DNA of 64,000 bases from Nesterenkonia populi (GTDB lineage Bacteria; Actinomycetota; Actinomycetes; Actinomycetales; Micrococcaceae). The notes beneath the pieces are model-generated. The model was not told the DNA's origin. It saw only the letters and a program-made list of their open reading frames with translations, and did no database searches. A program made the position numbers and the translations under genes. Location: assembly GCF_007994735.1 (NCBI RefSeq), contig NZ_VOIL01000001.1:248001-312000 (forward strand). Reading direction: 5' to 3'. Of the stretch, positions 32,938 through 49,484 are shown piece by piece. Every line of letters starts with the position of its first letter. Position 1 is the stretch's first letter.

Positions 32938-32975
32938 GTTTCAGATCAACAGGGCGGGCGTAAAAATCACCTCAC
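32938..32975 (-). promoter_or_regulatory. Weak GlnR-like box upstream of nirD
   Basis: Leftward reading: GTGAG-n6-TTTAC-n6-CCTGT-n6-GAAAC, 24-61 bases before the nirD ATG. The outer elements fit GTnAC and GnAAC, the inner ones hardly. The distance is the same as for the better boxes at nirB and nrtA, which is the main reason to list it. Confidence 0.3.
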
Positions 32976-33004
32976 AGAGATCCGGGCGAGGGTGTGAGGA
33001 GACT

Positions 33005-33042
33005 GTCACACCGGTCTCACACCTAGGTCACGGGGGTTTAAT
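33005..33042 (+). promoter_or_regulatory. GlnR-like box upstream of nirB
   Basis: GTCAC-n6-CTCAC-n6-GTCAC-n6-TTAAT. The two a-type half-sites (GTnAC) are perfect and exactly 22 bases apart, as in GlnR boxes of Streptomyces; the b-type sites are poor. It lies 23-60 bases before the nirB ATG. Confidence 0.55.
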
Positions 33043-33064
33043 GGCGCGCTGAGACTCTGGACCC

Positions 33065-35782
33065 ATGTCACCCGCCCACGGAAACAGCACCGATCGTCGC
33101 CGTCACGTTGCCGTGGTCGGCGGCGGCCCCGCCGCGCACCGGCTGGTGGAGGCCCTGACGGACCGCAACGAGGCCAGTCTGCGGATCAGTCTCTACACCG
33201 AGGAGGCCCTGCCCCCGTATGACCGGGTGGCGCTGTCCAAGCGGTTCGAGGACCGCGGCAATGATCTGCTGCTGGGTGAGGAGGACCTCTGGGAGAACCC
33301 GCAGGTCAGCCTGCACACCTCCACTCAGATCGTCGGACTGGACACCGCGTCGAAGACCATCACCGACGCCGAGGGCACCGTGCACGGATACGACGAGCTG
33401 GTGCTCGCCACCGGGTCCTCTGCGCCGCGGCCGCCGATCGACGGCAGCCAGCACATCGCGGTCTACCGCACGCTCGACGACGTCGACTGGCTGGTCGACG
33501 AGGTCCACCGCCTGGCCGAGGAGCTCGGCCGCACTCCGAAGTGCACGGTGATCGGAGGCGGGCTGCTGGGGCTGGAGGCCGCCGGCGGGCTGAAGGGCCA
33601 CGGCGCCGAGGTGACGATCGTCCACTCCCGCGACTATCTGATGAACGCGCAGCTGGACGAAGGCGGCGGCCGGACCCTGAACCGGCTGCTGGCCAAGGAG
33701 GGCTACGCCCTGCGCATGGGCGAGCGGCCGGCGTCGCTGAGCGTCAATGAGGACACCTCCTCGGCGAAGCACACCCTGAGCTTCAAGACCGGCGACGACG
33801 TCCCGGCGGACCTGGTGGTCGCCGCGATCGGCATCACTGCCCGGGACGAACTGGGCCGGGAGGCCGGGCTGGGGCTGAGCTCCCGCGGCGGCATCACCAT
33901 CGACGAGACCTGCTCGACCTCGGCCCAGCATGTGTGGGCGATCGGCGAGGTCGCCAACTTTGAGGGCATCTGCATGGGACTGGTGGCTCCGGCCAACGCG
34001 ATGGCCGAGGTCGTCGCCGACCGGCTCTGCGGCGGCGAGGCCAGCTTCGAGGGCTTCGACACCGCCGCGAAGCTGAAGCTGGCGGGCATGGACGTGGCCA
34101 GCTTCGGCGACACTCTGGGCACCACACCGGGAGCCCTGGAGGTCACCTTCGCCGACGCGGTCGCCGGCCTCTACCAGAAGCTCGTCGTCACCGACGACGC
34201 CAAGACCCTGCTGGGCGGGGTCTTCGTCGGCGACGCCTCCCCCTACACCTCCCTGCGACCCCTGCTGGGCAGGGAGCTGCCCGCTGAGCCGGGCGCCTTC
34301 CTCTCCGTCTCCGGCGGCGGCGTGGACATGGACCTGCCCGACGACGCCGAGGTCTGCTCCTGCAAGGCAGTCGACGCCGGGCACCTCCGCTGCGCGGTCA
34401 AGGGCGAGACCACCGGTGAGCCCGTCACCGACATGGGCGGGATGAAGAAGTGCACCAAGGTCGGCACCCAGTGCGGCTCCTGCCTTCCGATGGCCAAGAA
34501 GGTCATGGAGAAGGAGATGCTCATGCAGGGCATGGAGGTCTCCAGGGCGATGTGCGAGCACTTCGCCCTGGCCCGCCACGACCTCTTCGAGAAGGTCCGG
34601 GGCGCGGGGCTGCGCAGCTTCACCGAGGTGGTGGAGCAGTTCGGCTCCCCGGCGGACAGCTCGGTGAACCTCGGCTGCGACATCTGCAAGCCTGCGGTCG
34701 CCTCCATGCTCGCCGCGCTGCACGACGAGTACATCCTCGACGACGGCCGCGGCGCGCTGCAGGACACCAACGACCGGGCCCTGGCCAACATGCAGAAGAA
34801 CGGCACCTACTCGGTCATGCCCCGCATCCCCGCCGGGGAGATCACCCCCGACAAGCTGGGAGCGCTCGCCGAGGTCGCCAAGGAGTTCGGGCTGTACACC
34901 AAGATCTCCGCGGCACAGCGCATCGACCTCTTCGGCGCCCGGCTGGAGCAGCTGCCGAAGATCTGGATGCGGCTGGTCGACGCCGGCTTCGAGTCCGGGC
35001 AGGCCTACGGCAAGGCGCTTCGCAACGTGAAGTCCTGCGTGGGCACCACCTGGTGCCGCTACGGGGTGCAGGACTCTGTGGCCATGGGAATCCGCCTGGA
35101 GAACAGGTACAAGGGCATCCGCTCCCCGCACAAGATGAAGTTCGGCGTCTCCGGCTGCGCCCGCGAATGCGCCGAGGCCCGAGGCAAGGACGCCGGCGTG
35201 ATCGCCACCCCGGACGGCTGGAACCTCTACGTGGGCGGCAACGGCGGGGCCACCCCCGTGCACGCCCAGCTGCTCGCCAAGGACCTGGACGATGAGACCC
35301 TGCTGAAGTACATGGACCGCTACATCATGTACTACATCCGCACCGCAGACCGGATGCAGCGCACCGCTCGCTGGATCGAGGAGCTGCCCGGGGGCGTGGA
35401 CCACATCTACGACGTCGTCGTCCGCGACTCCCTGAGCATCGCCGAGGATCTCGAGGAGGCCATGCAGCGGCACGTGGACCGCTACGAGGACGAATGGGCC
35501 GCCACCCTCAACGACCCGGAGAAGCTGCGCCGCTTCCGCAGCTTCATCAACGCCCCCGACGCCCCCGACACCGACCTGAAGTACATCGTCGAGCGTGACC
35601 AGATCCGCCCGGCCACCGAGGATGAGAAGCAGGCCGCGGAGACCGGCACCGGGCCGGTGCTGCTGGGCCCCGAGATCCCCGTCAGGTCCGAGGAGACCGA
35701 AGCCTTCGCACAGGGCGAGGAGGGCATGGAGCCCGATGAGCAGCTTGAGCTCGTCGGCGCACCAGCGGACGGACGCCTGTGA
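33065..35782 (+). CDS. nirB: Nitrite reductase [NAD(P)H] large subunit NirB
   Basis: 905 residues. N-terminal FAD/NAD(P) oxidoreductase (VAVVGGGPAAHRLVEAL; second dinucleotide fold CTVIGGGLLGLEAAGGL), a BFD-like [2Fe-2S] domain near 425-475 (AEVCSCKAVDAGHLRCA, TQCGSCLP), then the sulfite/nitrite reductase repeats with the siroheme-[4Fe-4S] ligands in CVGTTWCRYG and SGCARECAEARGKD near 660-710. Reduces nitrite to ammonium with six electrons in the cytoplasm. A GlnR-like box lies upstream; no clear ribosome site, so possibly leaderless. The downstream nnaR frame overlaps its stop. Confidence 0.96.
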   Translation: MSPAHGNSTDRRRHVAVVGGGPAAHRLVEALTDRNEASLRISLYTEEALPPYDRVALSKRFEDRGNDLLLGEEDLWENPQVSLHTSTQIVGLDTASKTITDAEGTVHGYDELVLATGSSAPRPPIDGSQHIAVYRTLDDVDWLVDEVHRLAEELGRTPKCTVIGGGLLGLEAAGGLKGHGAEVTIVHSRDYLMNAQLDEGGGRTLNRLLAKEGYALRMGERPASLSVNEDTSSAKHTLSFKTGDDVPADLVVAAIGITARDELGREAGLGLSSRGGITIDETCSTSAQHVWAIGEVANFEGICMGLVAPANAMAEVVADRLCGGEASFEGFDTAAKLKLAGMDVASFGDTLGTTPGALEVTFADAVAGLYQKLVVTDDAKTLLGGVFVGDASPYTSLRPLLGRELPAEPGAFLSVSGGGVDMDLPDDAEVCSCKAVDAGHLRCAVKGETTGEPVTDMGGMKKCTKVGTQCGSCLPMAKKVMEKEMLMQGMEVSRAMCEHFALARHDLFEKVRGAGLRSFTEVVEQFGSPADSSVNLGCDICKPAVASMLAALHDEYILDDGRGALQDTNDRALANMQKNGTYSVMPRIPAGEITPDKLGALAEVAKEFGLYTKISAAQRIDLFGARLEQLPKIWMRLVDAGFESGQAYGKALRNVKSCVGTTWCRYGVQDSVAMGIRLENRYKGIRSPHKMKFGVSGCARECAEARGKDAGVIATPDGWNLYVGGNGGATPVHAQLLAKDLDDETLLKYMDRYIMYYIRTADRMQRTARWIEELPGGVDHIYDVVVRDSLSIAEDLEEAMQRHVDRYEDEWAATLNDPEKLRRFRSFINAPDAPDTDLKYIVERDQIRPATEDEKQAAETGTGPVLLGPEIPVRSEETEAFAQGEEGMEPDEQLELVGAPADGRL

Positions 35783-36990
35783 ACGAACAGCGCACTAGGG
35801 TGGGGACCGTGGAACCCACACCTTCCCCCCAGGAGATCCCCGAGGCGCCGACCACCGGATCTGCGGAGGGCTCGGCCGCCTCGTCGCTGCCGCAGACCCT
35901 CTCCGGGTTCCGGATCGGCGTGACCTCCGACCGCCGCTCGGAGGAGCTGATCAGCGCCTTCGAACGCCGCGGCGCCGAGGTGATGCACGCCCCGGCCCTG
36001 CGGATCGCCTCCCTGACCGAATCCATCACCCTGCAGCACGACACCAACAAGGTGATCGATGCGAAGCCCGACTACGCGGTCATCACCACCGCATACGGGA
36101 TGCGCCGCTGGGCCGAGGCCGCCGAGGCCTACGGCGTCTGGCCGCAGCTCTCCGACGTCCTGGAGAGCGCCTCCATCCTCGTCCGCGGCCCCAAGGCACG
36201 CGGCGCTGTCCGGGCCGTGGGGCTCGACGACGACGGCGCGGCCGAGGACGAGCGCACCGAGACGATGCTCGACATGCTTCTGGAGAACGACATCTCCGGG
36301 AAGACCGTGGCGTTCCAGCTGCACGGCCTGCTCAACCATGACCAGATCTCCCGGGTGGAGCAGGCCGGGGCCCAGGTCGTCGCTGTGATGCCCTACACCT
36401 GGACCAAGCCGCCGGAGGACTCCGAGCTGCTGAAGATGATCGATGCTGTCATCGAGCGTCAGCTGGACCTGCTGACCTTCACCGCCGCCCCCGGGGTGGA
36501 CGCGATGCTCGGCGTCGCCCAGCAGTACGGCAAGCGCGAGGCGCTCATCGAGGCCCTGCAGACTGACGTGATCGCCGCGGCCGTCGGCGGAGTCACCGCC
36601 CAGCCGCTCTATGAGGCCGGGGTCGACGCCGTCATCCCGTCCCGGTGGAGGCTCGGGGCGATGATCAAGAAGGTCATCGACCACTTGGAGACCCACCACA
36701 CCCTGCGCTTGGACACCCAGCACGGGCCCATCGAGCTTCGCGGCGCCGAATTCCGGGCACCCGAGGTCACGGAGGACCCCGTGCGCCTGGCGCCGGGCCC
36801 GCTCAGCCTGCTGCGCGCCCTCATGGAGGTCAAGGGCGCCACCCTTTCCCGGGAGCACCTGCTCGAGCAGGTCCGCTACTGCGACTCCGAGCACGCCCTG
36901 GAGATGTGGGTCTCCCGGCTGCGCAAAGCTCTCCCGGAGTCAGACCTGGTGCAGACCGTGGTCAAGCGCGGCTACCGCATCAAGACGTAA
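35779..36990 (+). CDS. nnaR: HemD/winged-helix regulator NnaR-like
   Basis: 403 residues from a GTG overlapping the nirB stop; a second GTG at 35809 with TAGGGT seven bases upstream is a strong alternative (393 residues). The N-terminal two thirds are uroporphyrinogen-III synthase-like (GFRIGVTSDRRSEELISAFE, VAFQLHGLLNHDQISR, LLTFTAAPGVDAML). The C-terminus is an OmpR-type winged helix (LLRALMEVKGATLSREHLLE, EMWVSRLRKALPES, VVKRGYRIKT). This is the architecture of NnaR/Rv0260c, a coactivator of nitrate and nitrite genes together with GlnR. A biosynthetic HemD role is the less likely alternative. Confidence 0.82.
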   Translation: MNEQRTRVGTVEPTPSPQEIPEAPTTGSAEGSAASSLPQTLSGFRIGVTSDRRSEELISAFERRGAEVMHAPALRIASLTESITLQHDTNKVIDAKPDYAVITTAYGMRRWAEAAEAYGVWPQLSDVLESASILVRGPKARGAVRAVGLDDDGAAEDERTETMLDMLLENDISGKTVAFQLHGLLNHDQISRVEQAGAQVVAVMPYTWTKPPEDSELLKMIDAVIERQLDLLTFTAAPGVDAMLGVAQQYGKREALIEALQTDVIAAAVGGVTAQPLYEAGVDAVIPSRWRLGAMIKKVIDHLETHHTLRLDTQHGPIELRGAEFRAPEVTEDPVRLAPGPLSLLRALMEVKGATLSREHLLEQVRYCDSEHALEMWVSRLRKALPESDLVQTVVKRGYRIKT

Positions 36991-37383: not shown

Positions 37384-38937
37384 CTACTGCTCCGAGTCTT
37401 CGTCCACCCAGTCGAAGCTGCGGGTGACGGCCTTGGACCAATTCCGCATGAGGCGCTGACGCTCGGTGTCCTCGATCTGCGGGGACCAGCGCGAGTCCTC
37501 GGACCAGTTGGCGGTGACGTCATCGATGGAGTCCCAGAAGCCCACGGCCAGACCGGCTGCGTAGGCAGCGCCGAGGGCGGTGGTCTCGATGACGGCCGGG
37601 CGGACCACGTCCACGCCGAGCACGTCGGCCTGGAACTGCATCAGCGTCTCGTTGACGACCATGCCGCCGTCGACCTTCAGCTCCTTGAGCGGATCGGCGG
37701 CGTCATGGGCCATGGAGTCCACCACTTCAGCGGACTGGTAGGCCACCGACTCCAGGGCCGCACGGCACAGGTGGTTCTGGTTCACATAGCGGGTCAGGCC
37801 CACGATCACGCCGCGGGCATTGGGCTTCCAGTGCGGGGCGAACAGCCCGGAGAACGCCGGCACGATGTAGGCGCCCCCGTTGTCCTCGACCTTCTTCGCC
37901 TTGGTCTCCACCTCAGGGGCTGAGGAGATCAGGCCCAGGCTGTCGCGCAGCCACTGCACCAGGGAGCCGGTGACGGCGATGGAGCCCTCCAGGGCGTAGA
38001 CCGGTGTCTCCTCGCCCAGCCGGTAGGCCACGGTGGTCAGCAGCCCGTGATCGGAGCGGATGATCTCCTCACCGGTGTTCATCAGCATGAAGTTGCCGGT
38101 GCCGTAGGTGTTCTTGCCCTGGCCGGGGGTGAAGCAGGCCTGGCCGAAGGTGGCGGCCTGCTGGTCGCCGAGGATCCCGGTGATCGGGGTGTCGATCAGC
38201 AGGGACTCCTTGCGGCCGTACCCGTACACCTCGGAGGAGGAGCGGATCTGGGGCAGCATGCTCACCGGCACGCCGACCGCCTCGGCGAGCTCCTCGTTCC
38301 AGTCGAGGGTGTCGATGTTCATCATCAGGGTGCGGGAGGCGTTGGTCACGTCCGTGATGTGGATGCCGCCGGCGGTGCCGCCGGTGAGGTTCCAGATCAG
38401 CCACGAGTCCATCGTGCCGAAGAGCAGGTCCCCGGCCTCGGCGCGCTCCCGGACGCCCTCGACGTTGTCCAGCACCCAGCGGATCTTCGGGCCGGCGAAG
38501 TAGGTGGCCAGCGGCAGACCGGTCCGCTCCCGGAACTTCTCGGAGCCGTGGGACTCCTCGAGCTGGTCGCAGATGGCCTGGGTGCGGGTGTCCTGCCAGA
38601 CGATGGCGTTGTAGACCGGCTCCCCGGTGCTCCTGTCCCAGACGAGGGTGGTCTCCCGCTGGTTGGTGATGCCGACGGCGGCGAGGCTGTGCCGGTTCAC
38701 GTCGGCATCCGCCAGGGCCAGCCCGATGACCTCGCGGGTGTTCCGCCAGATCTCGTTGGCGTCATGCTCCACCCAGCCTGCCTTGGGGAAGATCTGCTGG
38801 TGCTCGCGCTGCCCCGAGGATACGATGCGGCCGGCGTGGTCGAAGACCACCGCACGGGTCGACGTCGTGCCCTGGTCGATGGCGAGCACGTACTGGTCCT
38901 CGGTGGGGCGCTTGGTGGTGGGGGCGTTCTCAGTCAT
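37384..38937 (-). CDS. glpK: Glycerol kinase
   Basis: 517 residues of the FGGY family. N-terminal [49 protein letters not shown]-terminal [20 protein letters not shown] and [18 protein letters not shown]. Phosphorylates glycerol to glycerol 3-phosphate for GlpD. AAAGGA lies upstream of the ATG. Last gene of the leftward glpD-glpF-glpK unit, 54 bases after glpF. Confidence 0.97.
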
Positions 38938-38991
38938 TGCGGTGTCCTTTCAGAGTGTGGACAGTCAGGTCAGCGGGTGCGCCGGCGGCGC

Positions 38992-39720
38992 TCAGCCGGC
39001 GAGCAGGATGGGGGCTGTCAGTCCGGCGGCGGTGGCGCCCAGGATGGGCCCCACGATCGGCACCCAGGCGTAGGCCCAGTCGCTGCCGCCCTTGTTCCGG
39101 ATGGGAAGCACCGCGTGAGCGATGCGCGGACCCAGGTCACGGGCCGGGTTGATGGCGTAGCCGGTGGGACCGCCCAGGGAAGCACCGATGCCGACGACCA
39201 GCAGGGCCACCTCGAGCGGGCCCAGCTCGGAGGGTGTGGCCCCGAAGAGCAGAATCACCAGCACCAGCACGAAGGTGGCGATGGCCTCCGTGGTGGTGTT
39301 CCAGCCGTAGCTGCGCACAGCAGGGTCAGTGGAGAAGGTCCCTTTGATCACTCCGGGATCGTCCGCGGCATCATAGTGCTTCTTGTACGCCAGCCACGCG
39401 GCCACCGCACCGAGGAAGGCGCCGATGACCTGGGCAGCGAAGTAGGCGAGCATATGCGGCACGTTCGCAGCGATCCCGTCGGCGAACTCGGCCTCCCCGG
39501 AGACGAAGATGCCGGTGGTCACCGCCGGGTTGATGTGCGCCCCGGAGCCCCAGGAGACGTACACGGCAGCGAAGACTGCCAGCCCCCAGCCGAAGTGGAT
39601 CATGAGCGGGCCGCCGCCGTTTCCTTTGGCCCCGGGGAGCAGGGCGTTGGCGACGACGCCGCCGCCCAGCAGGGTCAGGGTCGCTGTGCCCATGATTTCG
39701 AACAGAAAGATGGTTTCCAC
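38992..39720 (-). CDS. glpF: Glycerol uptake facilitator (aquaglyceroporin)
   Basis: 242 residues from a GTG with AAAGGAG seven bases upstream. Six-span MIP channel with both NPA boxes: HINPAVT (64-66) and YAINPARD (191-193); the Asp after the second NPAR marks a glycerol facilitator rather than a water channel. Lets glycerol enter for GlpK. Middle gene of the glycerol unit, 59 bases after glpD. Confidence 0.96.
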   Translation of the reverse strand: METIFLFEIMGTATLTLLGGGVVANALLPGAKGNGGGPLMIHFGWGLAVFAAVYVSWGSGAHINPAVTTGIFVSGEAEFADGIAANVPHMLAYFAAQVIGAFLGAVAAWLAYKKHYDAADDPGVIKGTFSTDPAVRSYGWNTTTEAIATFVLVLVILLFGATPSELGPLEVALLVVGIGASLGGPTGYAINPARDLGPRIAHAVLPIRNKGGSDWAYAWVPIVGPILGATAAGLTAPILLAG

Positions 39721-39779
39721 CGGATGACTCCTTTGTCACGGTGCTCGATGTGAGCTGGTTCTTCGTTCCTCTTAATCGG

Positions 39780-41585
39780 TCATGTGGTGCGGAGGGTCTG
39801 CTGGACGGGGAGCGCCTCGGCCATCGCTTGAGCGGCCTCGACGTCGGTGGCGGACTGCTCGGCCGCCAGGTGGGCTTCCACGTAGCTGGTGTAGGCCCGC
39901 TTCTCGTAGGCGGCACGTTCATCGTCCCACCCGAGATCGTCCCTGACCATGGCAATCACGTGATCGGCTGCTTCGAGCCCGCGATCGGCAGTCTCGTGGA
40001 AGAGACGAGTGCGCCTCTCCAGCAGGTCCTCCAGGTGCACGGCCCCCTCATACCGGGCGGCGTACACGTACTCGGCGCCCAGGTAGCCGGCGGCTCCGGG
40101 CACCTCCTCGCCGAGCTCAGGCTGCTCATCGATGAGCGCCAGCAGCTCCCCGAGCAGGGAGCCGTAGCGGCCCAGCAGACGCTGAGCCGTCGTCGGCGAG
40201 AAGCTGTGCTGCGCGGCGATCTCCTCGGCACGGCCGGCCCACTCGCCGTAGCCCTGCCCGCCCAGCAGCGGCAGACGCTCGGTGAGGGAGGCGCGGTCGG
40301 CGAACTTCTCTGAGATCGCGAAGTCCACGGCGTCCTCGGCCATGGACCGGTAGGTGGTCAGCTTGCCGCCGGCCACCGCGGAGAGCCCCGGAGCCAGCCG
40401 CATCACGGTGTGCTCGCGGGAGACCTTGGAGCTGGCGGCCTCGCCGGCGTCCACCGGCTGCAGCAGCGGGCGCAGGCCGGCCCAGGTGCCGATCACGTCC
40501 TCGCGGACAAGATCAGTGGACAGCACGGCGTTGGCGTGCTCGAGGACATAGTCGATGTCCGCGGCGTTGGGGGCGGGGACATCGACCGGCTCATGCCATG
40601 CGGTATCTGTGGTGCCCACTGACCAGTAGTCGCCCATGGGGATGATGAACAGCACCGACTTCTCGGTCTGGGTGATGACCCCGACGTGCTCCTGCGCCGG
40701 GATGCGGTCCTTCGGCACGGTGATGTGGATGCCCTTGGAGGCCAGCACCTTCAGCGCGGGAGCGGAGCCGTCCTCGGCGTCGTCGTGGGCGAGCTTCTCC
40801 TGCTCGCCGGTCCAGACGCCGGCAGCCATAATGGTCTCGCGGGCGTAGACGGTGGTGGTGTCCCCGGTCTCCCGGTCGCGGATGACGACGCCGGTGACCT
40901 GCTCCTCGCCGTGGTGCGTCTCACGCACGTACTCGACCACCTCGGTGCGGACAGCAACGTGGGCGCCGAGGCTGGCGGCGGAGCGGGCCAGGGTCATCAC
41001 CAGGCGGGCGTCGTCGACCTGGGCGTCGAAGTACTCCAGGGCGCCGACGAACTTCTCCTGGTCCAGCCCGGCGAAGCGCTGCTGCAGACCCTTGCGGCTC
41101 ATGTGGCGGTGCAGGGGGGCGCGGCCCTGTCCGGTGAGCACGGACTTCAGGCCGTTGCCGCGGACGGAGGCCCCGAAGGACAGGCTGTCGTAGAGGGTGA
41201 CCCCGGAGCCGATGAATGCGCGGTCGATCGCGCGCTTCTCGAAGGGGAAGACGAAGGGCAGGCCCTTGACCAGGTGGGGCGCGGTGCGGGTCATGAGCAG
41301 GTTCCGCTCCCGCAGAGCCTCAGCGACCAGCTTGAAGTCGAGCATCTGCAGGTAGCGCAGGCCGCCGTGGACCAGCTTGGATGAGCGCGATGATGTTCCC
41401 TGGGCGAGGTCCCGAGCCTCGACGAGGCCGGTGCTCAGCCCGCGGGTTGCGGCGTCGAAGGCCGCGGCGGCGCCGACCACACCGCCGCCGACCACCATGA
41501 CGTCCAGCGGATGCTCCGGACTGGTGCCGGCGAATGCCTCAAGCGCGTCGGCGCGGGAGGAGGGGTTCATCGGCAGAGGCTTCAT
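39780..41585 (-). CDS. glpD: Glycerol-3-phosphate dehydrogenase
   Basis: 601 residues. FAD-binding LDVMVVGGGVVGAAAAFDAA, GTSSRSSKLVHGGLRYLQML, GVWTGEQEKLAHDD, TDTAWHEPVDVPAPNAADID and the GGKLTTYRSMAEDAVD motif, followed by the C-terminal GlpD cap. Oxidises glycerol 3-phosphate to dihydroxyacetone phosphate at the membrane, feeding the quinone pool. AGGATGAGCC precedes the ATG. First gene of the glycerol operon, divergent from the SorC-type regulator. Confidence 0.96.
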   Translation of the reverse strand: MKPLPMNPSSRADALEAFAGTSPEHPLDVMVVGGGVVGAAAAFDAATRGLSTGLVEARDLAQGTSSRSSKLVHGGLRYLQMLDFKLVAEALRERNLLMTRTAPHLVKGLPFVFPFEKRAIDRAFIGSGVTLYDSLSFGASVRGNGLKSVLTGQGRAPLHRHMSRKGLQQRFAGLDQEKFVGALEYFDAQVDDARLVMTLARSAASLGAHVAVRTEVVEYVRETHHGEEQVTGVVIRDRETGDTTTVYARETIMAAGVWTGEQEKLAHDDAEDGSAPALKVLASKGIHITVPKDRIPAQEHVGVITQTEKSVLFIIPMGDYWSVGTTDTAWHEPVDVPAPNAADIDYVLEHANAVLSTDLVREDVIGTWAGLRPLLQPVDAGEAASSKVSREHTVMRLAPGLSAVAGGKLTTYRSMAEDAVDFAISEKFADRASLTERLPLLGGQGYGEWAGRAEEIAAQHSFSPTTAQRLLGRYGSLLGELLALIDEQPELGEEVPGAAGYLGAEYVYAARYEGAVHLEDLLERRTRLFHETADRGLEAADHVIAMVRDDLGWDDERAAYEKRAYTSYVEAHLAAEQSATDVEAAQAMAEALPVQQTLRTT

Positions 41586-41694: not shown

Positions 41695-42663
41695 ATGAAG
41701 ACCTCATACCGGGAGAAGATCGAGTACACGGCTGCACAGATGTACTACGCCGAGAACCGGACGATGCAGCACATCGCCAACGAGCTCAGCGTCTCCCGGT
41801 CCACCGTCTCCCGCCTGCTGGCCGAGGCGCGCGAGCAGGGCATCGTGCGGATCAGCCTGCACCCGCCCACCGACCGGCCCAGCGCCCTGGAGCACCGGAT
41901 CGCCGAGGACTACGGGGTGACCGCGCATGTGGCCCACACCCTCAGCCGCGAAGACGCCTCCGCACGGCAGGAGGCGGTCGCCGCGCTGGCCTCCGGGGTG
42001 ATCGATTCGCTGGTGGAGCCGGACATGGTGATCGGTGCCGCCTGGGGCGCAACGATGACCTCCGTGGTGGGTCGGCTGCCCGCCAAAGAGGTGCCGGGGC
42101 TGCAGGTGGTCCAGCTCAACGGAGCGGTGAATTCCCAGCCGGCCGGGGCTGAGTCCGCCGGGACCGGCCTGGGAATGGGGGTCGTCGAACGCTTCGCGCA
42201 GGTGTACGGTGGCCGGCCGCACCTCTTCGCGGTTCCGGCGATCTTCGACTACGAGCAGACCAAGCAGATGCTCTGGCGGGAGCGCTCGACCTCACGCGTG
42301 CTCAACCTGCAGCGCCGTGCCTCACTCGCCGTGTTCGGCGTGGGTACGTTCGCCGCGGGCAGGCCGTCCCAGGTCTACGCGGAGGGGTACCTGAGCCGGG
42401 AGGACCTCAACCAGCTGACGGATGAGCAGGTGGTCGGCGACATCTGCACCGTCTTTCTGCGGGGGGACGGGTCGTGGCGGAACATCGAGCTGAACAGCCG
42501 CTGCTCCGGCATCCGCCCGGACGAGCTCTCCCGCATCCCCCGCCGGGTCTGCGTGGTCAACGGCCCGCACAAGATCCCGGCGCTCCGCGGAGCCCTCGCC
42601 GCCGGCCTGGTCACCGACCTCGTCCTCGACCAAGCCTCGGCGGACCTCCTCGCCCACGGTTAG
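41695..42663 (+). CDS. SorC/DeoR-type sugar-binding transcriptional regulator
   Basis: 322 residues from the ATG at 41695; the open frame runs much further upstream across glpD, but that part is antisense. N-terminal helix-turn-helix AAQMYYAENRTMQHIANELS VSRSTVSRLL split by the turn, then the SorC effector domain (DMVIGAAWGATMTSVVGRLP, FGVGTFAAGRPSQVY, RVCVVNGPHKIPALRGALAA). Ligands in this family are phosphorylated sugars or polyols. Divergent from glpD, so probably the glycerol regulator with glycerol 3-phosphate or similar effector. A CAGAAT hexamer six bases before the ATG suggests a leaderless start. Confidence 0.88.
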   Translation: MKTSYREKIEYTAAQMYYAENRTMQHIANELSVSRSTVSRLLAEAREQGIVRISLHPPTDRPSALEHRIAEDYGVTAHVAHTLSREDASARQEAVAALASGVIDSLVEPDMVIGAAWGATMTSVVGRLPAKEVPGLQVVQLNGAVNSQPAGAESAGTGLGMGVVERFAQVYGGRPHLFAVPAIFDYEQTKQMLWRERSTSRVLNLQRRASLAVFGVGTFAAGRPSQVYAEGYLSREDLNQLTDEQVVGDICTVFLRGDGSWRNIELNSRCSGIRPDELSRIPRRVCVVNGPHKIPALRGALAAGLVTDLVLDQASADLLAHG

Positions 42664-44180
42664 GCGGGCTGCTTCTCCGACTCATCGAGAATCTTCTCGA
42701 TGGTGCGATGGCAGGTGCCGCAGCCGGTTCCTGCCCGGGTCTGGGACGCGACGTCGTCGATGCTCTGACAGCAGAGGGCGGCCTCCTGAACCATTCCGAC
42801 CGTGGTGCCGGCGCAGCGGCAGAGAACATCCTCAGGGCCCAGCTCGGCCTCCTTGGTGGCATGCTCAGCGGCCAGCAGCGCGGTGCGGTCCGCAGCCGGC
42901 AGGGTTCCGCGCGAAGCGTGCATGGACAGCTCCGCTGCCGTCCGCGGCATCCCGATGGAGACGAACCCGATCAGCTTCTCCCCCTCGACGACGATCCGCA
43001 GGTACTGGCCGCGTCGCGGGTCAGACCAGGTGGAGACCTCCGGGGAGCTCGGATCCCACGGGTCGACGTCTGTCTTCCCGGCGCAGGCCATGTTCAGCGT
43101 CTTCGACTTCATCAGGATGACGTCCAGCCCAGCGGGCTGCTGCGGCCGGGCGAACTCGATCGGCTCCCCTGCGGCGTCCAGGTCCACCTGTGGTGCCAGG
43201 CCGAGGTCCTGCCGCAGGCTCGCCGCGGCGGCCTCGGCCTGCAGCCAGCCCGGGGCGATCAGCCCGGATGAGCCTTTGCCGTCCACCGAGGAGCAGTCGC
43301 CCACGGCGAAGATGTCCGGGTCGCCCGTGCTGCGGGCGTCGTACCCCACCGTGACACCCCAGGAGCAGGGCAGCCCCGCATCCTTCGCCAGCTCGTCCCG
43401 GGCGGCCACGCCGATGCAGACCACCAGCAGCGCCGCCGGGATCCGCTCGTCCAGGGAGGTGCGGACCGCGGTGAGCTTCCCGTCGTCGGAGACCACCTCG
43501 CGCACGTCGGAGGCCGCCCGGACGTCCACGCCCACCCGGAGAAGCTCCCGGCGCAGGAGCATGCCGGCATCCAGGTCCACCTCACGGCTCATCGGGATGT
43601 TCCCGCGGTGCAGCAGCTTCACCTCGCGCCCCATCTCAGCCAGCGCCAGGGCCGCCTCCACGCCGAGCACGCCGCCGCCGAGCACGACGACGGGCTGCTG
43701 GGCCTGAACCTTCTCCCGAACGGCGAGCGCATCCTCCATGGTGCGCAGGGGCACCACCCCCTGGGGCATCTCGGCACCGGCACGTTCGGCGTCGAGCTTT
43801 CCGCCGCGCCGGGCCTCCACCGTGCAGCGGGGCACCCGGGGCTCAGCGCCGGCCGCGAGGACGAGCTTGTCGTAGGGCAGCCGCTCGCCGTCGGAGAGGG
43901 CCACGATCTTCGCGGACCTGTCGATGCGGGTGGCCTGGATGCCCCTCCGCAGGTCCACACCGTCAGCGGCGAGCGCCTCCGGGGAGTCGATGACCAGCTC
44001 CTCGGGAGCGATCCGGCCGACGCTGACGTCGCCGATGCGGATGCGGTTGTAGGCGGGACGCTGCTCAGCGCCGATGATGGTCAGTGCGACCTGGCCGGCA
44101 CGGACCTCGGGCATCAGCTCCTCGGCCAGCCGGGAGGCGACAGGCCCGAACCCGACAATGACGATGCGGGACGCGCTCAT
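42660..44180 (-). CDS. nasB: FAD/NAD(P) oxidoreductase with [2Fe-2S] domain, nitrate reductase electron-transfer subunit
   Basis: 506 residues. FAD fold RIVIVGFGPVASRLAEELMP, NAD fold QPVVVLGGGVLGVEAALALA, flavin motif DIFAVGDCSSVDG. C-terminal BFD-like [2Fe-2S] domain with CRCAGTT and TGCGTCHRTIEK. The layout is that of the NADH-dependent partner of assimilatory nitrate reductase or the flavin half of NirB, without a siroheme domain. Its ATG overlaps the nasA stop by four bases, so it probably passes NAD(P)H electrons to NasA. Its stop overlaps that of the convergent SorC regulator. Confidence 0.85.
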   Translation of the reverse strand: MSASRIVIVGFGPVASRLAEELMPEVRAGQVALTIIGAEQRPAYNRIRIGDVSVGRIAPEELVIDSPEALAADGVDLRRGIQATRIDRSAKIVALSDGERLPYDKLVLAAGAEPRVPRCTVEARRGGKLDAERAGAEMPQGVVPLRTMEDALAVREKVQAQQPVVVLGGGVLGVEAALALAEMGREVKLLHRGNIPMSREVDLDAGMLLRRELLRVGVDVRAASDVREVVSDDGKLTAVRTSLDERIPAALLVVCIGVAARDELAKDAGLPCSWGVTVGYDARSTGDPDIFAVGDCSSVDGKGSSGLIAPGWLQAEAAAASLRQDLGLAPQVDLDAAGEPIEFARPQQPAGLDVILMKSKTLNMACAGKTDVDPWDPSSPEVSTWSDPRRGQYLRIVVEGEKLIGFVSIGMPRTAAELSMHASRGTLPAADRTALLAAEHATKEAELGPEDVLCRCAGTTVGMVQEAALCCQSIDDVASQTRAGTGCGTCHRTIEKILDESEKQPA

Positions 44181-46456
44181 GCGGCTGCTCCCTCCGGTGC
44201 TCTGGCCCCCTCCGGCGCGGGCCGTTCGTGCGGTGCGGCCGGCCGGATGGTGGCAGGGGTGGATTTGAACTCCGGCATGGAGCTCTCCGGGTCGGTGAGC
44301 CCCCGGGTCAGCAGGTTCGCTGTGCCCGAGCCGGGGAAGTGGAAGGGCGCGAAGACGGTGTCGGCGCGGATCCCGTCGGTGACCTCCACCCGGGCGAGCA
44401 TCTGCCCGTGCGCGGACTCCAGCACCGCGTACCCGTCCTCCGAGAGGGCGTACTGGGCGGCCGTGGCGGGGTGGACCTCCACATAGACCTCCGGCTGGGC
44501 TTCGGCGAGCGCGGGGACCCGCCGGGTCTGGGTTCCGGACTGGTAGTGCTCCATCAGCCGACCAGTGGTGAAGGTGATCTCCCCGGCTGCGCGAGGCTGG
44601 TTCTGGCGGCGGGGACGGATGGCGGAGAGCTTCGCCTTCCCGTCGGCGTGGGCGAACCGTTCGGAGAACATCCGGGAGGTGCCGATGACCGGCTCTCCGG
44701 TCATGGAGGTCTCACCGGAGCTCAGCGCCGAGGGGACCGGCCAGTAGGCGGCGCGGCCGTCGTCGAGCATCGCGTAGTCCAGCCCGGAATAGTCGGCCTT
44801 CGCTCCGCGGGTAGCCTCCCGCAGCTCCTCGAAGACCTCGGCGGGCTCAGTGGGCCAGGCCGACGGCGCACCCAGCCGGCGGGCGAGCTCGGCGAAGATC
44901 CACAGCTCCGAGCGCGCACCCTCCGGCGGCTCCACGGCACGACGGCGCCGCAGCACCCGGCCTTCGAGGTTGGTCATGGTGCCCTCCTCCTCGGCCCACT
45001 GCAGGACAGGGAGGACGATATCGGCCTCCTCGGCGGTCTCGGAGAGGAAGAAGTCGGCGACGACGAGCAGGTCGAGCTTCCGGAGGTTCTCCACCACACG
45101 GCCGGCGTCGGGCGCGGAGAGCGCGATGTTGGAGGCGTGGACGAACAGTGCCTTCACCCCGTCGGGGCCGGCCATCTGGTGCAGCAGCTGGGTGGCGGGC
45201 TTGCCGGGGCCGGGGATGTCGGCGGCGTCCACGCCCCAGACTTCAGCGACCCGGGCGCGGTCCTCCGGGTCGGCGACCATCCGGAGGCCGGGCAGCTGAT
45301 CGGACTTCTGACCCATCTCGCGGCCGCCCTGGCCGTTGCCCTGGCCGGTCAGCGTCCCGTAGCCGCCGCGGCGGCCGCCGCTCTCCCCCGGCATCCCGCC
45401 GCCGGGCAGACCCAGCAGCAGGGCGAGGCTGATCGCGGCACGGGCAGTGTCGGTCCCGTCGCGGTGCTGCTCCACACCGCGGCCGGTGAGGATGAAGACG
45501 GGGTCGCCGCCGTGGCGGGCAGCGTGCGCGGCGTGGCCGAGCTTCCGTGCGAGCAGGCGAATCTGGTCGGCACCGACTCCGGTGGCCGTCTGGGCGCGCT
45601 CGGGCCACCAGTGAGCGGCCGAGCGCCGGAGCTCCTCCAGGCCGTTGGTGCGGGCAGTCAGGTAATCGGCGTCCGCCCAGCCCTCCTCGAGGACAACCTG
45701 CATCACGGAGAGCAGAAGGACCAGATCCCCGCCGGGGGTGGGCTGGATGTGCACGCCGGCGCCGTCGGCGGTCAGCTCTGCGGTGGCGGACCGGCGCGGG
45801 TCCACCACGATCAGCCCTCCCTTGTCCCGGACGCCGTCGAGGTGCTGGACGAAGGGCGGCATCGTATCGGCCACGTTGGAGCCGAGCATCAGCACCGTGC
45901 ACGCGCCGTTGAGGTCGGTGAGCGGGAACGGCATCCCCCGGTCCAGGCCGAACACCAGGGTGGAGGCCTTCGAGGCAGAGGACATGCACCAGCGCCCGTT
46001 GTAGTCGATCTGGGAGGTTCCGAGCCCGACCCGCGCGAACTTCCCGATCGCGTACGTCTTCTCGTTGGTCAGCGCCCCTGAGCCGAAGACCCCGACGGCA
46101 TCCTTCCCGTGCTCGGACTGAATGGTCCGCACCTGGTCAGCGACGAGGTCCAGGACCTCCTCCCAGTCAGCCTCCCGGAAGGCGCCGTCCTCCTTGATCA
46201 GCGGGGCGGTGATCCGGTCGCTGCGGCTCTTCAGCAGCTCATGGGCGGTGCTCCCCTTGCGGCACAGGCGCCCCTGATTGGTGGGGAACCTCGCGCCCGC
46301 AGTCTCATACGCGTTCTCCTCGCCCGGCCGCTCGGTGACCGTCAGGCTCATCGCGCACTGCAGGGCGCAGTACGGGCAGTGCGTCTGCACTGTCCGTCGT
46401 CTCGCCGGGGTCCCCGTCTCCGGGGCCTCGCTGGCAGCCATAGGCGGCGTCGTCAT
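44177..46456 (-). CDS. nasA: Assimilatory nitrate reductase catalytic subunit
   Basis: 759 residues, molybdopterin oxidoreductase family. [4Fe-4S] ligands C27, C30, C34 (HCPYCALQC) and C65 (RLCRKG); Mo-coordinating cysteine candidate C157 in NGRWCMSSASKAS. Mo-bisPGD contacts include SNVADTMPPFVQHL, ILTGRGVEQHRDGTD, TLTGQGNGQGGREMGQKSDQ and the C-terminal dinucleotide-binding domain starting TGRLMEHYQSG. Lacks a Tat signal, so cytoplasmic. Reduces nitrate to nitrite for NirBD. Followed with overlap by nasB and preceded by nrtD by 11 bases. Confidence 0.94.
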   Translation of the reverse strand: MTTPPMAASEAPETGTPARRRTVQTHCPYCALQCAMSLTVTERPGEENAYETAGARFPTNQGRLCRKGSTAHELLKSRSDRITAPLIKEDGAFREADWEEVLDLVADQVRTIQSEHGKDAVGVFGSGALTNEKTYAIGKFARVGLGTSQIDYNGRWCMSSASKASTLVFGLDRGMPFPLTDLNGACTVLMLGSNVADTMPPFVQHLDGVRDKGGLIVVDPRRSATAELTADGAGVHIQPTPGGDLVLLLSVMQVVLEEGWADADYLTARTNGLEELRRSAAHWWPERAQTATGVGADQIRLLARKLGHAAHAARHGGDPVFILTGRGVEQHRDGTDTARAAISLALLLGLPGGGMPGESGGRRGGYGTLTGQGNGQGGREMGQKSDQLPGLRMVADPEDRARVAEVWGVDAADIPGPGKPATQLLHQMAGPDGVKALFVHASNIALSAPDAGRVVENLRKLDLLVVADFFLSETAEEADIVLPVLQWAEEEGTMTNLEGRVLRRRRAVEPPEGARSELWIFAELARRLGAPSAWPTEPAEVFEELREATRGAKADYSGLDYAMLDDGRAAYWPVPSALSSGETSMTGEPVIGTSRMFSERFAHADGKAKLSAIRPRRQNQPRAAGEITFTTGRLMEHYQSGTQTRRVPALAEAQPEVYVEVHPATAAQYALSEDGYAVLESAHGQMLARVEVTDGIRADTVFAPFHFPGSGTANLLTRGLTDPESSMPEFKSTPATIRPAAPHERPAPEGARAPEGAAA

Positions 46457-46467
46457 CTCTCCTGTTC

Positions 46468-47310
46468 TCAGCCGTGGGCGGGCGCGGGCTCGCGCGGGGC
46501 CACGGATGTGTCCTTCGGCGGCATCTTCTCGCGCTCGTTGGGGGTGGTGGTCAGCAGGTACATCATCCGCTCCTGGACCTCCCGGTAGCGGGGGTCGTCG
46601 ATGATGCTCACCCGGTCACGGGGCCGGGGGAGGTCGACGTCGATGATCTCGATGATCGAGGGGTTCGGCGGTGCGCCCATCACCACGATCCGGTCCGAGA
46701 GCAGGATCGCCTCATCGATGCCGTGGGTGACCATCACCACGATCTCCGTGTCCGACTCGGACTTCCACAGATCGATCAGCTGGTCCTGGAGCCGGGCGCG
46801 GGTCAGTGCGTCCAGGGCGCCGAAGGGCTCATCGGCCAGCAGCACCGCCGGCTCCACCGCGAAGGCCCGGGCCACCGCGCACCGCTGCTGCATGCCTCCG
46901 GAGACCTCGGAGGGCTTCTTGTCCTTCTGCTCCCAGAGGCCGACGGCGCTGAGGTACCTCTCCACGCCCTCGTCGATGCGGGCCCTGCCCCAGTCGGGCC
47001 GGGCCTCGCGGACGGCCACCGCCACGTTCTCAGCCAGCGAGAGACGGGGCAGCAGCGAATAGTTCTGGAACACCATCGCCCGGTCCGGGCCGGGCCCGTC
47101 GATCGGCTCACCGTCGAGCGTGATGCTGCCGCCGTCGATGCTGTTCAGCCCGCCCATCGCGTTGAGCAGGGTCGACTTCCCGCAGCCGGAGTGGCCGATC
47201 AGGGAGACGAACTCGTTGCGCTTGACCTCCATGTCCACGCCCCTCAGGACGGACTGGACGCCGCGCTTGGTGTCATAGGACTTCCAGATGTGATCGATGT
47301 TCAGGCTCAC
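46468..47310 (-). CDS. nrtD: Nitrate/nitrite ABC transporter ATP-binding protein
   Basis: 280 residues. Walker A GHSGCGKSTLLNAMGG at 39-54, Q-loop in MVFQNYSLLPRLS, signature VSGGMQQRCAVARAF, Walker B LLADEPFGALDALTR and the switch histidine in VTHGIDEAI. NrtD/SsuB/TauB class. ATPase of the nitrate importer with the permease and binding protein encoded just upstream (ATGA overlap with the permease). Placement before nasA indicates nitrate as substrate. Confidence 0.9.
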   Translation of the reverse strand: MSLNIDHIWKSYDTKRGVQSVLRGVDMEVKRNEFVSLIGHSGCGKSTLLNAMGGLNSIDGGSITLDGEPIDGPGPDRAMVFQNYSLLPRLSLAENVAVAVREARPDWGRARIDEGVERYLSAVGLWEQKDKKPSEVSGGMQQRCAVARAFAVEPAVLLADEPFGALDALTRARLQDQLIDLWKSESDTEIVVMVTHGIDEAILLSDRIVVMGAPPNPSIIEIIDVDLPRPRDRVSIIDDPRYREVQERMMYLLTTTPNEREKMPPKDTSVAPREPAPAHG

Positions 47311-48176
47311 GACTTGTTCTCCTTCTTGGACAGGACGTCGACGGCCTTGAGGAACAGCCAGTCTACGACCAGTCCGATCAGTCCGATCCAGAGGATGTTG
47401 GCCATCATCTGGTCGAAGCGGCTTCCGTTGTAGGCCTCCCAGGTGTCATTGCCGATGCCCACCGCGGTGCCGAGCATCTCGACGGCTACGATCACCAGCC
47501 AGGCCATGCCGAAGGCCAGACGCATTCCGGTGACGATGGAGGCGAAGGTGTTCGGCAGCAGCACGTGCCGGATGTAGGCGGCCCGGCCGAACTTGAACAC
47601 TTGGGCGACCTTCTTCTGGTCCTCGGGGATGGCGGAGGCCCCGGCCGCGGTGTTGATCGCGATCGGCCACAGGGCGGTGATGAAGATGACCCAGATGGAG
47701 GCCTGCTCGGAGTCCATGAAGATCACTGCGAAGATCGGGAACCAGGCCAGCGGGGAGACGGGGCGCAGCAGCTGGGCCACCGGGTTCGCCGAGTTCCACC
47801 ATTTGGTGGAGGTGCCCATCGCCAGCCCCAGAGGGATGCCGACGGCGGCCGCCAGCGCGAACCCCTCCAGCACACGTCCGAGGGACAGGCCCAGCAGGAT
47901 CGCAATTCCGCCGGCGCCGAACGGGTCGGAGATGTCCTCGATGATGCGGGCTCCGACCTCGGGCGGCGCAGGCAGCCGGTCCGGGGCGAAGACCCACCAG
48001 AGCAGGACGACGGCGGCGAAGCCCACCAGCCCCCAGCCCAGTGCTGAGAGGTAGGCCGCCGAGGCTGACTTCCGCGCCGGGGGCGGCGGAGTCTCTCCTG
48101 TGCCGGAATGCGGGGGAGTCCCGCTGCTGTCCGATGCTGTGACTGTCTCCTCGGCGGTGGCCGTGATCTGGCTCAT
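47307..48176 (-). CDS. nrtB: Nitrate/nitrite ABC transporter permease
   Basis: 289 residues. Hydrophilic N-terminus of about 40 residues, then about six membrane spans; the cytoplasmic EAA-like loop is FKFGRAAYIRHVLLPNTFAS. Also LAWFPIFAVIFMDSEQASIW and TGMRLAFGMAWLVIVAVEML, typical of the NrtB/SsuC/TauC permeases. Overlaps by four bases with both its neighbours, so the three transporter genes are coupled. Confidence 0.9.
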   Translation of the reverse strand: MSQITATAEETVTASDSSGTPPHSGTGETPPPPARKSASAAYLSALGWGLVGFAAVVLLWWVFAPDRLPAPPEVGARIIEDISDPFGAGGIAILLGLSLGRVLEGFALAAAVGIPLGLAMGTSTKWWNSANPVAQLLRPVSPLAWFPIFAVIFMDSEQASIWVIFITALWPIAINTAAGASAIPEDQKKVAQVFKFGRAAYIRHVLLPNTFASIVTGMRLAFGMAWLVIVAVEMLGTAVGIGNDTWEAYNGSRFDQMMANILWIGLIGLVVDWLFLKAVDVLSKKENKS

Positions 48177-49423
48177 GACCGGTTCGCCTCCTCTTCGGGA
48201 TTGTTGGGATCGAAGGTGGCACCGTCGAGTGCCACCTCGAAGGGCTCCATGTCGTCATCGGGAACGTCGATGCCTTCGGCCTCGGCGACCTCCCGGTAGA
48301 GGTCCTGCATGACGATCTCGTCAACCATGTCGTAGTCGACCTCGTCGGCGCCGAGCTGGCCGGAGCGGACGTACTGGGACAGCGCCCAGATCCCGTGGGA
48401 CTTGCGGGGGAAGTTCACGAACCCGTCGTTGAAGTAGAGCATCTGGGTGTCCTCGTACTGCTCGGTCGTGCCGTCTCCGAGGTCGTACTCGCCGAGCATC
48501 CGGGATTCGATGTCCTCCACCGGTGCGTTGACCCACTCCTGCGGGGAGATCAGCTCGGCGGCCTCGGCCCGGTTGTCCGGGTTGTCGAGCCATTCGGAGG
48601 CCTGCAGGATCGCACCCATGACGTCGCGCAGCACGTCCTCGCGCTCCTCGGCGAACTGGGTGTTGACCACCAGCGCCTTCTCCGGGTGGTGGGTCCACAG
48701 GTCCTGGGTGGCCAGGTGGGTGCGTCCGATGTCGCGGGAGACGGTCACCCCGGGCCAGGGCTCGCCGACGCAGTAGGCGACCATCTCGCCGCGCTCAGCG
48801 TTGGCGACCATCTCCGGGGGCGGGGTGACCTGCAGGTTCACATCATTCATCGGATCGATGTCCATGGCCATCAGCCAGTACTGCAGCCAGAGGTCGTGGG
48901 TGCCGCCGGGGAAGGTCATCGCCAGGGTGGGGTTGCTCATCCCGCGCAGCGCCTCTCCCGCGGCGTCGATATCCCCGTAGCCGACGTCGGGAAAATGCTC
49001 ATGGGTGAGGTTGATCGCCTGGCCGTTGTGGTTCAGCATCATCGCGATCCGCATGTCGCGGGCGCCGTTGCCGCCGATCCCGCTGGCCACGCTGAACGGC
49101 ATCGAATAGAGGCAGTGGGCACCGTCGATCTCGCCGGACTGCAGGTTGTCCCGGGTGGTGGCCCAGGAGGTCTCCTTGCGGACCAGCACGTTGAGGTCCC
49201 GCTCCTCGAAGTACCCGTTGATCTCCGCGATCGCCAGAGCCGCGAAGTCGGTCAGGGCGATGAAGCCCAGAGTGACGTCGCGGGCGCCGTCGCCGGCGGT
49301 CTCGCCCTCCTCTGCGCCTCCGCCGTTGCCGCTGATGCCGAAGGCGCGGCAGCCGGTGAGCAGGGAGGCGAGCGAGACGGCGCCGGTTCCGGCCAGAAAT
49401 CTGCGTCGGTCGAGTGAGTTCAT
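48173..49423 (-). CDS. nrtA: Nitrate-binding lipoprotein of the ABC importer
   Basis: 416 residues from the ATG at 49423; TAGTGT lies seven bases upstream, and an in-frame GTG at 49432 would remove that spacing. The N-terminus has a twin-arginine-like LDRRRFLAGTGAVSLAS followed by a lipobox-like LLTGC, suggesting a Tat-exported lipoprotein. CmpA/NrtA-type binding fold: TLGFIALTDFAALAIAEING, GEIDGAHCLYSMPFSVASGI, FPGGTHDLWLQYWLMA, EMVAYCVGEPWPG. Captures nitrate outside the membrane. First gene of nrtA-nrtB-nrtD-nasA-nasB; a GlnR-like box lies just upstream. Confidence 0.92.
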   Translation of the reverse strand: MNSLDRRRFLAGTGAVSLASLLTGCRAFGISGNGGGAEEGETAGDGARDVTLGFIALTDFAALAIAEINGYFEERDLNVLVRKETSWATTRDNLQSGEIDGAHCLYSMPFSVASGIGGNGARDMRIAMMLNHNGQAINLTHEHFPDVGYGDIDAAGEALRGMSNPTLAMTFPGGTHDLWLQYWLMAMDIDPMNDVNLQVTPPPEMVANAERGEMVAYCVGEPWPGVTVSRDIGRTHLATQDLWTHHPEKALVVNTQFAEEREDVLRDVMGAILQASEWLDNPDNRAEAAELISPQEWVNAPVEDIESRMLGEYDLGDGTTEQYEDTQMLYFNDGFVNFPRKSHGIWALSQYVRSGQLGADEVDYDMVDEIVMQDLYREVAEAEGIDVPDDDMEPFEVALDGATFDPNNPEEEANRS

Positions 49424-49446
49424 GACGCCCACACTAGGAGCCGCCT

Positions 49447-49484
49447 ATTTCACGGCCGTATTGGCCATGTGACCGATGATTGAC
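49447..49484 (-). promoter_or_regulatory. GlnR-like box upstream of nrtA
   Basis: Leftward reading: GTCAA-n6-GTCAC-n6-AATAC-n6-GAAAT, 24-61 bases before the nrtA ATG and just above the TAGTGT -10 (49431-49436). The 11-base periodicity and the GTnA/GAAA ends match the GlnR pattern, the distance matches the box at nirB. Confidence 0.5.

Follow-up and report, generated by a model that had tools for sequence, protein, structure and literature searches.

Phased NnaR-type dyads, GlnR-type half-sites and predicted -10 hexamers at nitrate and nitrite promoters of Nesterenkonia populi

The GlnR boxes described for Streptomyces, Mycobacterium and Amycolatopsis are built from GTnAC/GnAAC 5-mers set 6 base pairs (bp) apart, with nirB, glnA and amtB as targets in the passages cited here (PMC10704036, PMC3662644, PMC5826061). 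At nirB of S. coelicolor, NnaR and GlnR bind cooperatively (PMC10704036), and in M. smegmatis nirB expression is reduced in glnR and nnaR mutants (PMC6277429). We ask how the sites of these two regulators are arranged in a stretch of 64,000 nucleotides (nt) from Nesterenkonia populi (NZ_VOIL01000001.1, positions 248,001 to 312,000; the window, meaning the whole stretch analysed), which carries nirB, nirD and a nitrate operon that begins with nrtA.

In M. smegmatis the NnaR motif reads ctCACa/c-N16-t/gGTGag and is found at a similar distance to GlnR motifs, together with leaderless features (PMC6277429). In M. abscessus it precedes two start codons by 63 and 66 bp, and what NnaR senses is called a mystery in that report (PMC11162112). 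Nitrogen starvation leaves nirB of S. venezuelae unresponsive, for which its authors suggest a possible need of nitrate or nitrite (PMC3087709). A transcriptome study of an Arthrobacter finds higher expression of nrt, nas and nirBD on nitrate alone and lower expression once ammonium is added, with GlnR as the proposed regulator; the parts of it cited here mention neither NnaR nor a promoter layout (PMC12010642). Judging from sequence, the nirB, nirD and nrtA promoters of the window are quite likely activator-dependent sigma-70-type promoters of one architecture, at which GlnR and NnaR would co-activate the nitrate and nitrite genes.

Promoter layout at nirB, nirD and nrtA

GlnR-type half-sites at 11-bp steps precede the nitrogen genes nirB, nrtA and nirD (Table 1). 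The original prediction had placed a box ahead of each, with a "perhaps" for nirD, and its letters, coordinates and distances to the start codons are all reproduced here, at an occurrence beyond chance. The nirB box spans 23-60 bases upstream of the ATG at 33065, the sole possible start, with an in-frame TGA at 33050. The nrtA box covers 24-61 bases before the ATG at 49423, as does the nirD box before the ATG at 32914 in its first description (minus strand, GTGAG-n6-TTTAC-n6-CCTGT-n6-GAAAC at 32975-32938). At all three promoters the final half-site is followed by 10 bp and a predicted -10 hexamer (TAGTGT for nrtA, TACGAT for nirD and the weak candidate GACTCT for nirB), from which the ATG is, by eye, 7, 7 and 6 nt away.

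Further upstream lies a CTCAC/GTGAG dyad. One stands between the divergent nirD and nirB, placed for both sides, and another upstream of nrtA; they are the window's only exact dyads among gaps of 10-26. An 800-kilobase (kb) sample of the same genome holds one exact dyad with gap 17 and none with gap 18, and every other gap length has between 0 and 5. The proximal arm is one 11-bp step upstream of the first GlnR half-site, with n6 between them. From arm to -10 we count 59 bp at nirB, 59 bp at nrtA and 48 bp at nirD, with the arm ending 66 bases before the ATG at nirB and 67 bases before it at nrtA. Because the nirD distance is one 11-bp step shorter, the outermost GTGAG of the nirD box is read as the dyad arm, which leaves nirD with three GlnR half-sites. 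The box that had been called the weaker one is present above chance (17.1 bits in the matrix below), but as three units rather than four.

The dyad is probably an NnaR operator, locked in phase with the GlnR array. As to the single nitrogen circuit first proposed, the GlnR-type boxes support a nitrogen circuit, but the phased NnaR-motif dyad upstream suggests that it is probably not run by GlnR alone. Beyond the nrtA dyad, about 360 bases (49518-49881) extend to a divergent DEAD-box helicase gene with a DbpA domain (49882-51687), where a long leader is possible.

A constant distance to the -10 and its conservation

A strict promoter geometry had also been claimed. A fixed distance does exist, but it is that of the 10-11 bp separating the box from the -10, and not the one between box and ATG. 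An anchor at the ATG was rejected, as relatives retain the former and not the latter; the near-constant ATG distances of nirB, nirD and nrtA may be put down to transcripts that look leaderless, as predicted from the -10 positions.

The closest named nirB loci come from Nesterenkonia, then Kocuria, Arthrobacter, Sanguibacter, Sinomonas, Specibacter and Salinibacterium. We used 36 of 38 relative loci (loci carry L numbers), excluding L059 and L060 from metagenome-assembled genomes of Ancalomicrobiaceae at 32-33% identity. When the box is chosen by the published consensus alone, then of 53 nirB loci, the window counted among them, 33 have TANNNT at offset 10, and no other offset has it in more than two; this placement still mislocates a few loci (e.g. 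L052). With a seed that includes the -10 and allows spacers of 9-11, 10 bp is chosen at nirB in all 36 Micrococcales relatives, and the hexamer is TANNNT in 35 and CANNNT in one. Candidate nirB starts in the relatives lie from 6 (L023, L055) to 73 nt (L044) after the -10; nirB has a leader in most of them, and the 10 bp are still kept. By script, a -10 falls 5-9 nt before the start in 9 of 53 nirB loci (L038 being doubtful) and 8 of 48 nirD loci, with the window unflagged. The layout, with a fixed site-to-(-10) distance and the box over the -35 region, is of class II type, and its 10 bp recur at the three window promoters and in the relatives.

The dyad is conserved along with it. Its arm is 59 bp from the nirB -10 in 34 of the 36 relatives and 58 bp in L055; on the nirD side the distance is 59 bp in 29, 60 bp in three (with an 11-bp spacer), 58 bp in two and 48 bp in N. 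pannonica (L048), which matches the window. The remaining locus, L023, has no good dyad on either side. Over the 36 loci, the dyad shows no mismatch in 12, one in 20 and two in four. nirD was located in 35 relatives and is divergent from nirB in every one of them, and nnaR lies downstream of nirB in 33, the other three loci being truncated. N. pannonica nirD also has the identical TACGAT hexamer, 8 nt from its ATG, and agrees with the window's nirD start at 32914. The nirB of that species matches in separate pieces, which a frameshift or an assembly error may explain.

Among 17 distant actinobacterial nirB loci, six combine a dyad at 58-59 bp with a -10 that is followed by a start codon after 6-7 nt. 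That start belongs to nirB itself in L116, L119 and L120, and in L121, L123 and L124 (large genomes) to a gene of 403-404 amino acids directly upstream of nirB that by eye resembles a flavin adenine dinucleotide (FAD) oxidoreductase. In the more distant loci L116-L126, nirD is collinear with nirB in 11 of 11.

For the level expected by chance, a weight matrix of GlnR half-sites plus a -10 at 10 bp was built solely from nirB and nirD promoters of other species. Its input was the best box-plus-(-10) site on each strand of the 300 bases that precede nirB at the 36 loci; 68 of 72 candidate sites were kept, all with 10-bp spacers, and four under the seed score were dropped. The window's three best non-overlapping sites are those of nrtA (33.4 bits), nirB (21.3 bits) and nirD. 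Overlapping registers of these sites reach 11.8, 9.9 and 6.8 bits, the best site elsewhere 4.3 bits, and the maximum averages 8.9 bits over 20 random 64-kb sequences (first-order Markov). With orthologues of the nirB and nirD sites in the training set, nrtA is the only independent matrix test, and this promoter from outside the training set scores highest of all. The third GlnR unit is the weakest in the matrix.

Other promoters and competing readings

Does the same layout recur elsewhere? We scanned 1.60 megabases (Mb), made up of the window, the 36 loci and 40 stretches of the own genome, with the nirD/nirB regions excluded throughout, for dyads of at most two mismatches next to a composite site, i.e. 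box plus -10. An offset of 11, one step, gave 16 rows at 11 distinct sites; 26 other offsets together gave 13 rows. Nine of the 11 have at most one dyad mismatch, and these are the window's nrtA promoter, four narK-type promoters (L037, L034, L038 and L024 by family scans, the L024 frame being a 148-residue piece) and four formate/nitrite-transporter (fnt) promoters (L027 and L044 by family scan, L026 and L051 named by position and length only). The remaining two, with two dyad mismatches, precede the genome's own glnA1 and a GntR gene.

The background sample of the own genome covered 800 kb (31% of the genome), with spacers 10 and 11 and registers merged. It holds five composite sites of at least 17 bits: glnA1 (34.7), a GntR gene (33.3), an NMT1-type binding-protein gene (32.1), a site assigned to no gene (19.9) and an fmdB-like/formamidase locus (18.3). 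Random sequence of equal length has none and peaks at 16.6 bits. Boxes equally frequent away from nitrogen genes, which would have spoken against the prediction, are thus not seen, although not all five sites are proven to belong to nitrogen genes. The amtB composite site scores 25.1 bits. The GlnR-type sites at glnA1 and amtB have no good dyad: amtB shares with the amidohydrolase, NMT1 and ATP-binding cassette (ABC) ATPase sites a box and a -10 with four mismatches in the near arm, and with the sites of two GntR-like genes of the own genome included (L004 by Pfam, L013 by eye) the range is three to four.

Several of these sites are worth recording for their neighbours. In L003 (own genome, C1:102559-102596, minus strand) a GlnR-type site is followed by 10 bp, TAGACT and, 7 nt on, the ATG of the amidohydrolase, which is divergent from a frame that by eye resembles a xanthine dehydrogenase FAD subunit. 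Composite sites precede the two GntR-like regulators of L004 (C1:72199, minus strand) and L013, and another (L105, C1:1680151) lies ahead of an fmdB-like frame, judged by eye, and formamidase. In same-genus genomes, L062 and L063 carry composite sites between cyanase-like and AraC/PAS-type genes (both by eye). A search with nrtA over 149 same-family genomes found a match in 77, of which only three besides the own genome fall below 1e-30. The two same-genus ones among these (34% identity), near a gene that by eye is cyanase-like and with box and -10 present, were not taken as orthologues.

A number of observations weigh against an architecture shared by these promoters. The training sites cannot test the 10-bp spacing, because the seed held the -10 at 10 bp. 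With a box placed by consensus alone, TANNNT occurs at 10 or 11 in only 12 of 48 nirD loci, perhaps because the nirD units fit the consensus poorly. For the window's nirB the same script settled on the register that lies one half-site further upstream, and for its nirD on a different site; the window does not qualify in it, since GACTCT misfits [TC]ANNNT and the nirD box is placed elsewhere. This nirB hexamer is poor in itself, with a precedent in the narK-type site of L024 (GACTGT, ATG 6 nt after), and nirB is non-leaderless in most relatives. Box-only scanning of the own-genome sample is thin: among 15 box rows YANNNT stands twice each at 10, 11, 21 and 1, and two strong boxes (C1:1155719 and C1:326223) are not followed by a -10 at 10-11 bp. 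At L113, the second glutamine synthetase locus, no site reaches 11 bits. In N. cremea (L023, about 9800-10000), nirB has strong GlnR sites, a -10 and nnaR, and no good dyad. The full leaderless form is missing from 11 of the 17 distant loci, several of which are just 32-37% identical and may not be nirB. In M. smegmatis, nasN is controlled by GlnR without an NnaR site (PMC11162112), so that not every nitrate gene carries the dyad.

The published consensus itself adds to these points. GTNAC/GNAAC in four copies with up to three mismatches matches 14 times in the whole genome (2.55 Mb, two contigs, 99% complete), and the nrtA, nirB and nirD boxes are not among the matches (nirB has four mismatches by hand count); by this Streptomyces-type yardstick they are weak. 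The scan picked up glnA1 and others. Its 6 forward and 8 reverse matches compare with 0 and 6 for a backward-read control, which places weak consensus matches near noise.

Of the other explanations, the one that survives best dispenses with NnaR: GlnR alone would set the spacing, and the upstream arms would each serve as a fifth, outermost GlnR half-site for their own side. The arm does stand in the same 11-bp register, and in many Arthrobacter loci the 3' arm is GTGAC, a good GlnR half-site, which a fifth unit would account for too. It comes, however, as a facing pair at 17-19 bp that fits the published NnaR motif, near-exact at the nrtA, narK and nitrite-transporter promoters and poor at glnA1 (two mismatches, both arms), amtB and others, and nnaR keeps its place downstream of nirB in the relatives. 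We therefore regard GlnR acting alone as unlikely.

It is more doubtful still that MtrA is the main binder, repressing or competing at these boxes. Its motif is nearly identical to that of GlnR in the part of the M. smegmatis report cited here (PMC6277429), and PF00486 yields nine winged-helix regulators in the genome, GlnR and NnaR included; yet the composite sites lie mostly at genes of nitrogen metabolism (glnA1, amtB, nir, nrt, formamidase), glnR is in the window, and none of the nine was identified as mtrA. Mere common descent of intergenic DNA that evolves slowly, suggested by the many closely related Arthrobacter among the 36 relatives, can practically be set aside, as the matrix holds 0-0.8 bits at spacer letters against up to 2 bits at the best half-site and -10 positions, candidate nirB starts vary widely over a dyad-to-(-10) distance that stays at 59 bp (save L055 and L023), and the layout is repeated at nrtA, narK and fnt promoters and its box and -10 at glnA1. 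GlnR and NnaR acting together thus stand as the preferred explanation.

The genes needed for this are at hand. As originally predicted, glnR and an nnaR-like gene are both in the window. The best matches of glnR in the PDB are 8hih, 8hig and 8hml, and nnaR begins before nirB has ended. A glycerol kinase gene and a glycerol-3-phosphate dehydrogenase-like gene (37384-41585) separate the nirB-nnaR unit from the nrt-nasC operon.

Table 1. Positions of genes and predicted promoter elements in the window
Feature	Position	Strand	Remarks
glnR, orphan OmpR-family regulator	20250..20933	+	best PDB match 8hih, 240.8 bits vs 94.2 for MtrA 2gwr
mshD	20956-21930		directly after glnR
nirD, nitrite reductase small subunit	32558..32914	-	divergent from nirB; TIGR02378, 103 bits, over cut-off
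nirD -10 TACGAT	32922..32927	-	7 nt to ATG; predicted leaderless
nirD GlnR half-sites, three	32938..32964	-	GAAAC 32938-32942, CCTGT 32949-32953, TTTAC 32960-32964; 17.1 bits with -10; 10 bp to -10
NnaR-type dyad CTCAC-N18-GTGAG	32971..32998		common to nirD and nirB; fits published ctCACa/c-N16-t/gGTGag
nirB GlnR half-sites, four	33005..33042	+	GTCAC-n6-CTCAC-n6-GTCAC-n6-TTAAT; 21.3 bits with -10
nirB -10 candidate GACTCT	33053..33058	+	weak, without first T; 6 nt to ATG
nirB, nitrite reductase large subunit	33065..35782	+	TIGR02374, 877 bits
nnaR, HemD-like domain and winged helix	35779..36990	+	NF005568, 423 bits vs cut-off 273; C-terminal PhoB-like wing
FAD reductase like NirB N-terminus	42660..44180	-	last gene of nitrate operon
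nasC-type assimilatory nitrate reductase	44177..46456	-	NF047855, 673 bits, under cut-off 1100
Nitrate-type ABC transporter ATPase	46468..47310	-	TIGR01184, 280 bits, under cut-off 291.8
Nitrate-type ABC transporter permease	47307..48176	-	TIGR01183, 184 bits, under cut-off 209
nrtA-like binding protein	48173..49423	-	first gene of nitrate operon; weak SsuA_fam match; operon context
nrtA -10 TAGTGT	49431..49436	-	7 nt to ATG; predicted leaderless
nrtA GlnR half-sites, four	49447..49484	-	GTCAA-n6-GTCAC-n6-AATAC-n6-GAAAT (49484-49447); top-scoring window site, 33.4 bits
NnaR-type dyad CTCAC-N17-GTGAG of nrtA	49491..49517		one base short of published motif; arm to -10 59 bp

Proposed working and relation to known systems

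From positions, spacing and conservation that the DNA itself displays, we infer the proteins that bind, their cooperation, the leaderless starts and a two-input logic. The architecture would run from an NnaR dyad (CTCAC-N17/18-GTGAG) through n6 to GlnR half-sites repeated every 11 bp (three at nirD, four each at nirB and nrtA), and on through 10 bp to the -10 hexamer. The GlnR units may cover and replace the -35 region, as those of PhoB-type activators do; given a start 7 bases after the -10, they would be centred near -25, -36, -47 and -58, and NnaR would dock near -69, upstream of them by another turn of the helix and facing the same way. GlnR would report nitrogen shortage, and NnaR would confine firing to the nitrate and nitrite genes, with the single dyad between the divergent nirD and nirB serving both. 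Because its gene overlaps the 3' end of nirB, NnaR probably strengthens its own expression. This two-input logic would agree with the reports on S. venezuelae, S. coelicolor, M. smegmatis and Arthrobacter.

If this is true, the NnaR dyad, GlnR units and -10 all sit on one helical lattice of 11 bp across actinobacterial nitrate and nitrite promoters, the arm being 58-59 bp away from the -10. Dyad-less promoters would answer to nitrogen limitation alone, and those with a dyad would also need a nitrate- or nitrite-linked signal. In Micrococcales the two divergent genes nirD and nirB would be driven as mirror images by one dyad, and exactly one nirD-side GlnR unit would have been lost in the lineage of the window (the window and N. 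pannonica), a natural in-phase deletion. The four parts taken jointly, rigid two-activator grammar, dyad-dependent signal, mirrored dyad and in-phase unit loss, are in our view somewhat better than evenly probable.

Degenerate half-sites give many doubtful GlnR predictions, as the consensus scan of this genome illustrates. A rigid layout would sharpen the prediction of GlnR sites and separate genes of general nitrogen limitation from those of nitrate and nitrite. The two-way dyad and the in-phase 11-bp loss also suggest ready constructs for studying the joint recruitment of RNA polymerase by two orphan regulators and the signal of NnaR. Already known are both regulators, their motifs, their co-regulation and the leaderless features. 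Of the exact lattice, the dyad shared by nirD and nirB and the in-phase unit loss we found no earlier description in titles, abstract beginnings and passages, supplementary files and subscription journals being outside this scope.

A structure of GlnR with RNA polymerase has reportedly been described by Shi et al. in 2023. PhoB, of the OmpR family, binds the direct repeats of the pho box at 11-bp steps, replacing the -35 and ending about 10 bp from the -10. It differs from the system proposed here in regulator and signal, and there is no second activator dyad. The boxes of the window share the 5-mers, their 6-bp spacing and targets with the GlnR boxes of Streptomyces, Mycobacterium and Amycolatopsis. 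The poorly conserved and dispensable third unit (a2) of S. coelicolor amtB has a counterpart here, where the third unit is also the weakest (PMC10704036, PMC3662644, PMC5826061). The nirB and nrtA half-sites differ from known boxes in being weak, and the fixed 10 bp from the last half-site to the -10 was not found stated for known boxes in the passages cited.

The NnaR-GlnR promoters of mycobacteria and S. coelicolor are also close, and in the cited passages have the same dyad motif, similar motif spacing and leaderless features (PMC6277429, PMC11162112). The 63 and 66 bp of M. abscessus would fit the 66 and 67 bases of the window, counting the two extra end bases of one motif form. What sets the promoters described here apart is their exact register (an 11-bp step and 59 bp to the -10), a single dyad for the divergent nirD and nirB, and a layout shared by nrtA, narK and nitrite-transporter promoters.

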